The notes beneath the pieces are model-generated. The model ran no database searches. It had not been told where the DNA came from and saw nothing but the letters and a program-made list of their open reading frames with translations. A DNA stretch of 64,000 nt, from contig NZ_JANZYP010000033.1 of assembly GCF_025506355.1 (NCBI RefSeq), forward strand, positions 1 to 64,000. The letters run 5' to 3'. This document shows positions 24,506 through 27,319 of this stretch, piece after piece. Source of the DNA: Sphaerisporangium corydalis. GTDB taxonomy: Bacteria; Actinomycetota; Actinomycetes; Streptosporangiales; Streptosporangiaceae. Each line of letters opens with the position of its first letter. Positions within the stretch are counted from its first letter, which is position 1. A program made the translations under genes and the position numbers.

Positions 24506-25315
24506 GTGGATCGCAACGAATTCGCCGGCGCCGAGCCCCCCGCGAAGATGTCCCGTCGTAACATGGTGAATTCCATAGGCGGCGGAGTTCTGGCCGCCAT
24601 CGGGGCCACACCCTCCCACGTCGCCCCCAACGGCGCATCGGGTGCCGCCGCCGCGGCAGGCCCAGGCGGCCCGTCCGAATGCCCAGGACCGCCGTTGGAG
24701 ATTTCTCCGAGCGAGGTCAGTTCCCGGTTGAGGTCGCTGTACACCACCATGCTCGGAGACAGCCAACTACAGGCGCGGTTCATTCAGAATCCGTCCAGCG
24801 TCCTTGTCCAATATGGCATGGCCTCGTCCATCACCTACGAGGCGGCCAGCGCCGCGAACCGGCTGCTGTTCTCCATTCTGAGCAACCCCGCCTTCCGGGA
24901 GTGGCTGCGCTCCTACGCGGCGCAGCACCTCGGCACGAGGCTGGATTCCAGGCAGGCCGCTCAAGATCTCACGGTGGCCATCCGGGACTTCGGAGATCCG
25001 AACCTGATCAGCGCGATGGTCGAGTCCGCGACCGTGGGTCAACCCATCCCGGGCGGTGGTTTCGGACCGCTCGCGAACCAGTTGCTGGTCAACAACGCGT
25101 CCGGAACCACCGTCGTCACCCCGGTGTCGAGTCCGTCGACCAGCAACCAGACCATCCACAGTTCCTCGAACTTCGACGGCACCGGGGAGAGCCTCGGCGG
25201 CCCGTCCGTGATCAGTTCCGCCCTCCTGCGGACGCTCGCCGAGCAGTTGACGACCCGGGCGCAGCAACTGTCGAGTGCCGGAACCCTGTCCGATCTCCGC
25301 ACCCGGATCTTCTGA
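24506..25315 (+). CDS. putative radical SAM substrate A, exported, twin-arginine-type signal
   Basis: A 269-residue protein, paralogous to the product at 25399. A twin-arginine-type start reads KMSRRNMVNSIGGGVLAAIG (residues 14-33), then an Ala/Gly-rich stretch and a single cysteine at residue 59 in SECPGPPLEIS. The mature part has strongly conserved blocks shared with the paralogue: LLFSILSNPAFREWLRSYAA (120-139), GDPNLISAMVESATVGQPIP (163-182), GGGFGPLANQLL (183-194), and a C-terminal FDGTGESLGGPSVISSALLR (223-242). The chain ends in an aromatic residue (RIF). GTG at 24506 has AAAGGA nine bases upstream. I know no family; it is far longer than usual RiPP precursors. Probable substrate of the radical SAM enzyme, by context. 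Confidence 0.7.
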   Translation: MDRNEFAGAEPPAKMSRRNMVNSIGGGVLAAIGATPSHVAPNGASGAAAAAGPGGPSECPGPPLEISPSEVSSRLRSLYTTMLGDSQLQARFIQNPSSVLVQYGMASSITYEAASAANRLLFSILSNPAFREWLRSYAAQHLGTRLDSRQAAQDLTVAIRDFGDPNLISAMVESATVGQPIPGGGFGPLANQLLVNNASGTTVVTPVSSPSTSNQTIHSSSNFDGTGESLGGPSVISSALLRTLAEQLTTRAQQLSSAGTLSDLRTRIF

Positions 25316-25317
25316 CA

Positions 25318-25333
25318 GGAGCGCCCGCGCTCC
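25318..25333 (+). terminator. short hairpin between the two substrate genes
   Basis: GGAGCGC (25318-25324) and GCGCTCC (25327-25333), 2-nt apparent loop, directly after the first stop codon. It could attenuate or process the operon mRNA and set the ratio of the two substrates to the enzyme. No T-run, so termination is doubtful. Confidence 0.35.
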
Positions 25334-25398
25334 CTGCGGCGCAGTTGGGCCGAACCGATCCGAGTGATCATCCGCTTGCGTGTGGAAGAGGGAATCCA

Positions 25399-26178
25399 GT
25401 GGCACGCGACGAATCCGACAGCACCTCACTCCCCGAACACGTCTCCCGCCGTAAGGCGATCGCGATGGGCGGTGGGGCCATCGCCGCGATCGGCGGCGTT
25501 TCGGCCGCGGCCGCGCCGGCCGCGGCGGGGGCGGCGGCCGTGACCGACTGCCCCGGCTCGCCGTTGCAGATCTCCGCGAGCACGGTCTACTCCAACCTGA
25601 GGTCGTTGTACACGACCATGTCGACGAACAACTCGCTACAGGCGCAGTTCATCCAGGATCCGTCCGGCGTTCTCGCCCAGTACGGCATGCAGTACACGAT
25701 GCCGGCCGACGCGACCACGGCCGCGAACCGGCTGCTGTTCTCCATTCTGAGCAACCCCGCCTTCCGGGAGTGGCTGCGCTCCTATGCGGCGCAGCACATC
25801 GGCACGAGGCTGCCTCCGTACCAGGCCGCCAACGACATATCGGCGGCCATCCAACGTTTCGGGGACCCGAACCTGATCACCGCGATGGTCGAGTCCGCGA
25901 CCGTGGGCCAACCCGTTCCGGGTGGTGGTTTCGGACCGCTGGCGAACCAGTTGCTGATCAACAATGCGGCCGGAAGCGTGTTCGTCACCCCGGTGTCGAG
26001 TCCGTCGACCAATAGCGCCAATAGTTCCTCGCACTTCGACGGCAGAGGGGAGAGCCTCGGCCCCCCGTCCGTGATCAGTTCGGCCCTCCTGCGGCAACTC
26101 GCCGAGCGGTTGACGACGCGGGCACAACAGCTGTCGCAGGCCGGAGTGCTGTCCGACCTACGCCAAGAGATCTGGTGA
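25399..26178 (+). CDS. putative radical SAM substrate B, exported, twin-arginine-type signal
   Basis: A 259-residue paralogue of substrate A. The signal is HVSRRKAIAMGGGAIAAIGG (residues 14-33) followed by an Ala-rich run; the only mature cysteine is Cys51 in TDCPGSPLQIS. All blocks of substrate A are kept: LLFSILSNPAFREWLRSYAA (112-131), GDPNLITAMVESATVGQPVP, GGGFGPLANQLL, and FDGRGESLGPPSVISSALLR (213-232). It ends in EIW, again an aromatic final residue. GTG at 25399 has GAAGAGGGA upstream. Only 4 bp separate it from the radical SAM gene. No lipobox is present (Asp before the Cys). Function unknown. Confidence 0.7.
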   Translation: MARDESDSTSLPEHVSRRKAIAMGGGAIAAIGGVSAAAAPAAAGAAAVTDCPGSPLQISASTVYSNLRSLYTTMSTNNSLQAQFIQDPSGVLAQYGMQYTMPADATTAANRLLFSILSNPAFREWLRSYAAQHIGTRLPPYQAANDISAAIQRFGDPNLITAMVESATVGQPVPGGGFGPLANQLLINNAAGSVFVTPVSSPSTNSANSSSHFDGRGESLGPPSVISSALLRQLAERLTTRAQQLSQAGVLSDLRQEIW

Positions 26179-26182
26179 CCTC

Positions 26183-27319
26183 ATGGAGCAGAGAGCCGAC
26201 GCCGGCGACGTCACGAAGTCCGAAGATGACCCGCTCCAACCCCACGAGCAGTCGCTCGTCCGCGGAGTCAAGATCCTGTCGGTCATGCCCACGTTCCGCT
26301 GCACGGCGGCCTGCGCCAGTTGCGGCACCTACAGCAGTCCGGCGGAGCGCACGGTCCTGAACCCGCAGGCCATCCGTGCGGCCATCGGGGAGGCCCACCG
26401 GCTGGGCTTCGGGATCGTGGTCTTCACCGGAGGTGAGGCCACGCTCCAGCGACGCGACCTGCTCGACGCCATCGCCTATGCGACGAGCCTCGACCTGCCG
26501 ACCCGGTTGGTCACCAACGCATACTGGGCACGGAGCCCGCAGAAGGCCGCGCGGGTCATCGACGAGCTCATGACCGCCGGCCTCACCGAGATCAACTACA
26601 GCACCGGCGACGAGCACGTCCGCTTCGTACCGATCGACCGGGTCGCGGTCGCGGTCGTCGAGGCGGTGAAGCGCCGGCTGCCTGTGCACGTCATGGTCGA
26701 GCTGAGAGCGGAGCGTTCGGTGACGCGGGACACCGTCCTCGGCCGCCCCGAACTGCGCGCGCTGTCGGATTCGCAGCGGGACATGGTCAAGGTGGTGGAG
26801 AGTCCGTGGATGCCGCTCGATCCGCATCAGGTGGAGCGCTATCCCGATGGCCTGACGACCGATTCGGGCAACATATCGGAACGGCTCGGTTGTGACAGCC
26901 TGTTGCGCACGTACACCCTCCAGTCCGACGGTAGGGTCGCGGCGTGCTGCGGGCTGGGCATGCGCGCCATCGACGAGCTCAACGTCACCACCGTCGACGA
27001 GCCCGACTTCCTCGGCCGCGCCGTGCGGACCGCGGAGTCCGACGTGCTCAAGCTGTGGATCCACTCTCTCGGGCCCGACCGCGTCCTGCAGTGGGCCGCG
27101 GAGAAGGATCCCTCGATCCAGTGGCAGGGCATGTACGCGCATCATTGCCAATCGTGCCACCGGGTCTACCAGGATCCGAAGGTCCGCGCCGTCATCCAGG
27201 AGCACGGCCACGAAATGATCGGGACGGTCGCACAGACCCTGTGGCTGGACGAGTACCTGGCGCCGGCGGTCATCGACCAGGCGATGCCTCCGAAGGCCGG
27301 GCTCGACATGACCAGGTGA
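26183..27319 (+). CDS. radical SAM protein, probable peptide/protein-modifying enzyme
   Basis: A 378-residue enzyme. The SAM-binding [4Fe-4S] cluster motif C-x3-C-x2-C is Cys40, Cys44 and Cys47 (FRCTAACASCGTY), and the GGE motif is at 83-85 (VFTGGEATLQ). After the partial TIM barrel come extra cysteines at 237, 255, 256, 322 and 325 (GCDSLL; VAACCGLG; HCQSCH), a SPASM/twitch-like set for auxiliary clusters, as in enzymes that crosslink peptides. There is no N-terminal RRE-like domain obvious in the first 30 residues. The ATG at 26183 follows GGTGA, 4 bp after substrate B, so it is co-translated with it. The chemistry is unknown. Confidence 0.82.
   Translation: MEQRADAGDVTKSEDDPLQPHEQSLVRGVKILSVMPTFRCTAACASCGTYSSPAERTVLNPQAIRAAIGEAHRLGFGIVVFTGGEATLQRRDLLDAIAYATSLDLPTRLVTNAYWARSPQKAARVIDELMTAGLTEINYSTGDEHVRFVPIDRVAVAVVEAVKRRLPVHVMVELRAERSVTRDTVLGRPELRALSDSQRDMVKVVESPWMPLDPHQVERYPDGLTTDSGNISERLGCDSLLRTYTLQSDGRVAACCGLGMRAIDELNVTTVDEPDFLGRAVRTAESDVLKLWIHSLGPDRVLQWAAEKDPSIQWQGMYAHHCQSCHRVYQDPKVRAVIQEHGHEMIGTVAQTLWLDEYLAPAVIDQAMPPKAGLDMTR

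Follow-up and report, generated by a model that had tools for sequence, protein, structure and literature searches.

We analysed a 64,000-nucleotide stretch of the Sphaerisporangium corydalis genome (NCBI RefSeq assembly GCF_025506355.1, contig NZ_JANZYP010000033.1, positions 1 to 64,000 of the forward strand; hereafter the window) and found that a radical S-adenosylmethionine (SAM) enzyme and the two large proteins encoded directly upstream of it very probably form an enzyme-precursor pair. The enzyme gene (26183..27319, 378 aa, ATG start) encodes a protein resembling EpeE/YydG, the epimerase of the epipeptide system of Bacillus subtilis. It is preceded by two tandem genes with GTG starts, which encode precursor 1 (24506..25315, 269 aa) and precursor 2 (25399..26178, 259 aa). 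All features described here lie on the + strand. Homologues of both precursors were detected using hidden Markov models. The two proteins are 67% identical to each other, and the gap between the precursor 2 gene and the enzyme gene is 4 bp. Further, purine-rich, Shine-Dalgarno-like stretches were seen by eye upstream of both GTG starts. An initial annotation of the window had described this arrangement of tandem paralogues and enzyme, and we confirmed it from the sequence.

Conservation of the enzyme-precursor pair across phyla

We examined 20 loci, each counted once, consisting of the window and 19 loci in which the enzyme was approximately 47-57% identical to that of the window. These were from a cyanobacterium, two Chromobacterium, Methylocapsa, Amycolatopsis, six Duganella-type genomes (L062-L066 and L071), G291, G287, G237, G004, G113, G126, G276 and Streptomyces canus. 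G004 and the window genome share a genus. A homologue of the precursors was found directly upstream of the enzyme in all 20 loci, which belong to Actinomycetota, Proteobacteria and a cyanobacterium. A substrate model built from 11 sequences was run on six-frame open reading frames (ORFs) from the window and 75 loci (E ≤ 0.1). Every match better than 1e-4 fell in a locus where the enzyme was a close homologue, and no match was obtained in 28 loci collected through other radical SAM genes (L001-L008 and L011-L030, mostly with flanks of about 1.5 kb). The weakest matches, scored with models built without them, were those of Amycolatopsis (1.6e-6) and of two Actinomadura-type sequences (2.6e-5 and 6.1e-5); the S. 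canus homologue scored 9.9e-19 with a model lacking S. canus. The proposal of the initial annotation that the radical SAM enzyme acts on large substrates encoded beside it is thus in line with a partnership kept in every close locus. Among 15 relatives, with gene starts chosen by us, the precursor and enzyme genes overlapped in 11, adjoined without a gap in one and were 39-49 bp apart in three.

The enzyme itself was rare: of 394 genomes that sampled the class, four encoded it (E ≤ 1e-60). Within the family, 13 of 341 genomes had an enzyme match at E ≤ 1e-12, and eight of these, including that of the window, matched at E ≤ 1e-100. Scanning of genome contigs gave 21 enzyme loci, three of which duplicated loci from the family search, and scanning of plasmids gave seven enzyme records, including that of S. 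canus (49% identity). Over 19 loci, the distances between enzymes correlated with those between precursors (r = 0.93; 0 of 2000 permutations); some of the rows are near-identical, and the value does not count as independent evidence. In the phylogenetic tree, the group containing the window enzyme mixed phyla; its fork was not strongly supported and several distant branches were very long.

We considered whether the neighbours are instead not enzyme and substrate, with the radical SAM protein having a small-molecule substrate and its two neighbours being structural or regulatory. BlsE, which acts on a small molecule, was the next fold match after EpeE, the leader of the precursors occurred without the enzyme in five loci, and the window cassette lies between an IclR-like gene and homogentisate-pathway-like genes. 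However, a leader protein was directly upstream of all 20 close enzymes across phyla, and the nearest relative by fold was EpeE. Further, the correlation of distances argues weakly in the same direction, given that the rows are related, and the GC content at third codon positions (GC3) of the cassette was 0.82-0.89 compared with 0.98 in two downstream genes, as if the cassette had been separately acquired. We consequently disfavour a small-molecule enzyme and consider this explanation highly improbable.

Similarity of the enzyme to the epimerase EpeE

The enzyme matched the Pfam Radical_SAM model (37.9 bits; cut-off, 29.5), and a match to Pfam SPASM was absent at E ≤ 1. It has eight cysteines (residues 40, 44, 47, 237, 255, 256, 322 and 325), all of which were invariant in 24 of 24 aligned homologues, so that the count of C40, C44 and C47 plus five further cysteines in the initial annotation was correct. 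The first three form the radical SAM cluster motif CxxxCxxC (26300..26323). C237 (26891..26893), C255 of the C255-C256 pair (26945..26950), and C322 and C325 of a CxxC motif (27146..27157) are candidate ligands of a second, auxiliary cluster.

The best relative in the PDB by single sequence was YydG. When a profile of the 24 homologues was compared with the PDB, EpeE/YydG was detected with an E value of 4.9e-22, followed by PqqE at 9.4e-7. In a Foldseek search with a model of the enzyme (predicted local distance difference test score [pLDDT], 90.6), the top nine matches were EpeE chains (2.3e-16 to 1.4e-15) and the next was BlsE (6.9e-10). Among family models, TIGR04078 (YydG) matched the most members, namely 24 of 24 homologues at E ≤ 1e-5; other maturase models of NCBIfam matched at lower scores (PqqE in 22, StsB in 16 and PapB in three of the 24). 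The initial annotation had placed the enzyme among SPASM/twitch proteins, whereas the nearest solved enzyme is an epimerase.

In the alignment with EpeE, the CxxC motif coincided with that of EpeE, and C256 with Cys223, which is proposed as the hydrogen donor in PMC8326336 and PMC5682303. C255-C256 is opposite a CC pair of EpeE whose second cysteine is the residue changed in the C223A construct (8ai3), so that C256 is, by alignment, the equivalent of Cys223.

A conserved leader and a variable core in the precursors

The precursors consist of an N-terminal extension, a conserved helical leader of about 110 aa, a variable core predicted to be disordered and a C-terminal helix. In precursor 2, the extension (25399..25539) is followed by the leader (residues 55-168; 25561..25902), the core (residues 169-227; 25903..26079) with the motif SSSHF (26023..26037), and the C-terminal helical segment (residues 228-258; 26080..26172), in which R232, L238 and A242 are conserved and model confidence is low. 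In precursor 1, the extension is at 24506..24655; the leader (approximately residues 63-176; 24692..25033) and the core (approximately residues 177-237; 25034..25216), which contains the motif SSSNF (25160..25174), were mapped from the precursor 2 model by alignment. That model had helices at residues 60-168, with a block of pLDDT 69-87 over residues 61-160, and a C-terminal helix at 228-247; confidence was low over residues 165-236. Because its overall pLDDT was low (52.6), we used it for the domain outline only. A helical leader followed by a tail with pLDDT below 50 does not agree with the folded-size substrates that had been envisaged.

In a 20-row alignment of precursors, which were 127-338 aa long, five columns were invariant and all of them were within the leader. 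The core had no invariant column and three that were at least 80% conserved (G192, T197 and F213 in precursor 2 numbering). The window cores are rich in Ser, Thr, Pro and Asn and in the alignment were most like those of the cyanobacterium and Chromobacterium. Elsewhere we found GTDT repeats in Duganella, TGTGTG in Methylocapsa, a Ser-rich core in Amycolatopsis and a hydrophobic one in G276; the variable cores beside the conserved enzyme include (GTDT)n, SSSASSSSSATF and VAVIIILALVVVAM.

Several residues had been suggested as sites of modification. Each window precursor has a lone cysteine in the sequence CPG-x-P-L (C59 in precursor 1 and C51 in precursor 2), and 11 of the 20 rows have no cysteine at all, so that we rejected this residue as the target. 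Five Duganella-type rows (L062-L065 and L071) have a cysteine one alignment column away from it, just before the leader, and L066 has none. The C-terminal aromatic residue (F and W, respectively) is restricted to the window pair among the 20 rows and was rejected as well. NPAFREWLRSYAA is more likely recognised than modified, because it lies within the conserved leader, and FDGxGES, which lies within the core, may be a target. FREWLRSYAA was rejected as a modification target on the basis of the alignment, the precursor 2 model and a residue scan.

Neither window precursor had a Pfam match at E ≤ 1 or a match above the cut-off of any NCBIfam model. The leader had no significant match in the PDB by fold or profile. 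The top PDB match of its profile was the borosin precursor SonA (LigA-like domain), which was not significant (E 0.29); borosins carry backbone N-methylation, and the leader model had no fold match.

The N-terminal extensions are possible export signals. As the initial annotation stated, both begin in a twin-arginine manner, with an RR pair (residues 17-18) followed by a stretch of Ala and Gly that is weakly hydrophobic (Gly/Ala in precursor 1, Ala-rich in precursor 2). However, the twin-arginine translocation (Tat) model TIGR01409, run on the first 60 residues at E values of up to 10, listed neither precursor, although HMMER filters may drop weak matches, and precursor 1 matched a model of another Tat-target family, TIGR02811, only weakly (E 1.3; 9.4 bits; cut-off, 48.45). 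We therefore leave Tat export undecided on these sequences; whether the precursors would be exported at all is finely balanced, leaning slightly towards the negative. In the cyanobacterial precursor (L055:1515-2447), a transthyretin-like stretch (Pfam TTR-52, E 0.00033, 21.6 bits; cut-off, 24.9) stands ahead of the leader in place of the signal.

Leader-guided epimerisation as the probable reaction

Taken with the similarity to EpeE, these features suggest that the enzyme probably performs leader-guided L-to-D epimerisation of the core. The enzyme would recognise the helical leader, and a 5'-deoxyadenosyl radical would remove the C-alpha hydrogen from core residues, as in EpeE/YydG-type chemistry. 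C256 would then return hydrogen from the opposite face to give D-residues, as its homology and alignment with the catalytic cysteine suggest. More tentatively, the modified protein may be exported through its N-terminal signal with the leader still attached. Because the enzyme is conserved and the core residues are not, and EpeE performs such chemistry, a reaction at the backbone C-alpha is the simplest that all of these pairs could share; the absence of invariant core columns, with three at 80% or more, favours backbone over side-chain chemistry.

Several results weigh against epimerisation or export. The window enzyme scored 57.6 bits with TIGR04078 and did not reach the equivalog cut-off of 300. 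Asp210 of EpeE (8ai6, D210A) aligns with T243, which is not conserved, and C237 is offset by two residues from the nearest EpeE cysteine in the profile alignment. EpeE epimerises Val and Ile, and the window cores are rich in Ser, Thr, Pro and Asn. Further, the known substrate of EpeE is small, a peptide that loses a leader of 32 residues during its export, according to PMC8326336. The failure of TIGR01409 to list the precursors and the leader loci lacking a nearby EpeE-like enzyme belong here as well. Because TIGR04078 matched all 24 homologues and yet the window enzyme was far under its cut-off, we say that the enzyme would work like EpeE and not that it is a YydG.

One alternative is that the enzyme cross-links the core through C-C, C-O or C-N bonds, as in cyclophanes, or through thioethers, for example at the [ST][ST]xxF motif. 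An aromatic core position is indeed conserved, with F at position 213 in 16 of 20 rows and the pattern [ST][STQA]x[NHSTG]F in 14 of 20, and the PqqE, StsB and PapB models, which represent cross-linking or other peptide maturases, match the homologues at their lower scores. However, six rows (L045, L046, L049, L050, L051 and L059) lack the scanned motif, and EpeE is well ahead in both profile and fold. The window enzyme also differs from SPASM-type sactipeptide and ranthipeptide maturases in lacking a Pfam SPASM match, and thioethers are disfavoured because of the 11 precursors without cysteine. Cross-linking is accordingly an unlikely alternative to epimerisation.

A second alternative is a different C-H reaction at the core, for example the formation of cyclopropylglycine, a desaturation or an oxidation, which would recall TvgA/TvgB. 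As described in PMC9062424, TvgB acts on a core of TVGG repeats, and its cluster also encodes an Fe/alpha-ketoglutarate-dependent oxidase; cores of GTDT repeats that lie next to an oxygenase-like gene resemble this arrangement. However, TvgB, which we compared by that description only, forms cyclopropylglycine from Val, and GTDT repeats hold no Val, whereas the cysteine pattern of the window enzyme, including the catalytic residue, matches EpeE. We judge this alternative slightly less probable still than cross-linking, and epimerisation remains the reading that we prefer.

Leaders without the enzyme

Comparison of 338 genomes of the family with the substrate alignment gave matches in 11 genomes at 14 places, one of which was the second fragment of one gene. 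At four of these (G113 C27, G127, G193 and G233), the leader was present and the 11-12 kb of sequence retrieved contained no EpeE-like gene. Such a gene lies at another site in the G113 genome, and a SPASM radical SAM gene is encoded further downstream in G193. Among 396 genomes sampled across the phylum, two had matches at E ≤ 1e-8, namely the window genome and G381, in which again no EpeE-like gene was found within the 11-12 kb fetched. Thus, the expectation that the substrates always adjoin a radical SAM gene held for the 20 close loci and failed for these five.

All five enzyme-less loci had an oxygenase-like gene beside the leader gene, and two (G113 and G127) had an FkbM-like gene. Among the 20 enzyme loci, an oxygenase-like gene was present in seven (Methylocapsa and the six Duganella-type loci), with products 45-51% identical to the G127 protein, and six of these seven had an FkbM-like gene (52-54% identical). 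The FkbM domain was named by Pfam in the three proteins tested. In the oxygenase-like protein, an HxD and a distal H, noted by eye, are like those of 2-oxoglutarate (2OG)-Fe(II) oxygenases. We call it oxygenase-like because its Pfam match was insignificant (0.066) and a PDB search gave no relative. Because the enzyme-less loci carry oxygenase-like genes and some carry FkbM-like genes, the leader appears to be shared by modifying enzymes of more than one type. Neither an oxygenase-like nor an FkbM-like gene was found in the window.

In L097, L098, L099, L100 and L106, leader proteins adjoin the oxygenase-like protein and lack an EpeE-like enzyme. The cores in L097 and L100 contain long (TG)n and those in L098 and L099 a short TG run; an FkbM-like gene accompanies the former two and a gene for a 146-aa protein the latter two.

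Distant relatives and other candidate precursors

Enzymes 24-44% identical to that of the window were found in alphaproteobacteria, Bacteroidota, Thermus, Eleftheria, Lactococcus, Enterococcus, Halocatena and Rhizobium. An ORF with a Val/Ile/Ala/Thr-rich stretch was nearby in nine of 13 such loci (L067-L070, L073, L074, L078, L080 and L081). The cores beside these more distant enzymes include VVVVVVTVTVV, TITITVTMTMTVTV and VNANVHYNVNTNLNV. As a rough control with shorter flanks, a similar scan of the 28 loci of other radical SAM genes gave four. Candidate precursors were seen by eye in L075 and L079 and none was seen in L082; in L077, the scan for a Val/Ile/Ala/Thr-rich stretch gave only an SdpI-family ORF.

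L077 (2599-6074) is from plasmid pTA14 of Thermus aquaticus Y51MC23 and encodes an EpeE-like enzyme (39% identical) that adjoins a precursor with the core VNANVHYNVNTNLNVSTNANFNYNANYNYNGN, in which residues alternate with Asn. The leader of this precursor is shared with the close group (E 3.2e-12 and 2e-12 among 3 sequences, using models without Thermus), and its score with TIGR01409 (16.0; cut-off, 16.7) is near the threshold. Two genes downstream is a methyltransferase gene whose product is above the Pfam MTS cut-off and matches NCBIfam models of the HemK/PrmC type below their cut-offs. Beyond the close group, leader homology was found in Thermus only; it was not shown for the Eleftheria, alphaproteobacterial, Bacteroidota, Bacillota and archaeal precursors.

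In the alphaproteobacterial loci L073 (6251-7941) and L070 (1571-2667), three and two tandem candidate precursors, respectively, lie upstream of the EpeE-like enzyme, with poly-Val and alternating Thr/Ile/Val cores such as TITITVTMTMTVTV. On an Eleftheria terrae plasmid (L078:6044-7150), a candidate precursor beginning with MKRRRILGAIG and having a Val/Ala/Ile-rich core is located downstream of the enzyme. A Lactococcus lactis plasmid (L079:4454-9464) encodes a small candidate precursor, an EpeE-like enzyme, a C1 peptidase and an ABC transporter, possibly an epipeptide-like cluster.

Comparison with known systems

A gene-encoded leader-core precursor with a hypervariable core, adjoining its modifying enzyme, is characteristic of ribosomally synthesised and post-translationally modified peptides, and the window pair has this arrangement. 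The epipeptide system (precursor EpeX/YydF, epimerase EpeE/YydG) provides the nearest solved enzyme by profile and fold. It has in common with the window the CxxxCxxC motif, the CC pair with the catalytic cysteine, the C-terminal CxxC and the encoding of precursor and enzyme together. In contrast, the window enzyme is far under the YydG cut-off and does not conserve Asp210, the window-type precursors are 127-338 aa long with a conserved leader domain, and the window cores are hydrophilic.

Proteusins (polytheonamide, PoyA/PoyD; pythonamide, EreA/EreD) share a large leader and a C-terminal core. According to PMC9505594 and PMC11285071, the pythonamide pathway with the epimerase EreD also holds oxygenase-like and FkbM-like genes, as do some relatives of the window locus, and in polytheonamide biosynthesis PoyE N-methylates D-Asn. 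The Asn-alternating core and methyltransferase gene of Thermus recall polytheonamide, whose described GNINVN motif resembles that core. Unlike that of proteusins, the leader of the window-type precursors was not recognised as nitrile hydratase-like: the NCBIfam scan gave no match of the nitrile hydratase leader peptide (NHLP) type for the window precursors, and the NHLP-related model TIGR04509 matched three of the 20 precursors weakly (best, 0.0061) and S. canus at 0.0012 (18.8 bits; cut-off, 34). The cassette was not described in the top-ranked titles and abstract openings covered by our literature search.

A broader and more doubtful possibility is that these loci represent a cross-phylum class of modified proteins, in which a leader not recognised as nitrile hydratase-like guides epimerases of the EpeE type to diverse tails, joined in some lineages by FkbM-like methyltransferases and oxygenases. 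Some members (window, Thermus and possibly Eleftheria) would be exported whole with a D-amino-acid tail and not cut to a small peptide, and the proteusin toolkit would thus have been re-invented independently on exported proteins. If so, EpeE-type epimerisation would reach beyond short secreted antimicrobial peptides to large, leader-bearing, possibly exported targets in Actinomycetota, Proteobacteria, a cyanobacterium and a Thermus plasmid, and would involve other candidate precursors in Bacteroidota, Bacillota and a haloarchaeon. The pairing of a single enzyme family with GTDT-repeat, Ser-rich, poly-Val and alternating-Asn tails would make these loci a natural library in which to study how such enzymes select residues, and might yield a tool to put D-residues into proteins.

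Setting of the cassette in the window

The cassette is flanked upstream, on the other strand, by an IclR-like regulator gene and downstream by genes with homogentisate 1,2-dioxygenase and fumarylacetoacetase domains. Neither a peptidase nor a transporter was among the flanking window genes scanned. Because its GC3 is below that of the two downstream genes, the cassette composition is consistent with acquisition separate from its neighbours. A phage or virus origin was rejected: the enzyme had no match among 50,697 phage records at E ≤ 1e-10, and none was confirmed in viral contigs. Within the cassette, the two precursor genes are closest at the nucleotide level over aa 109-148 and 169-250 of precursor 1, with few synonymous changes; this likeness may reflect gene conversion.

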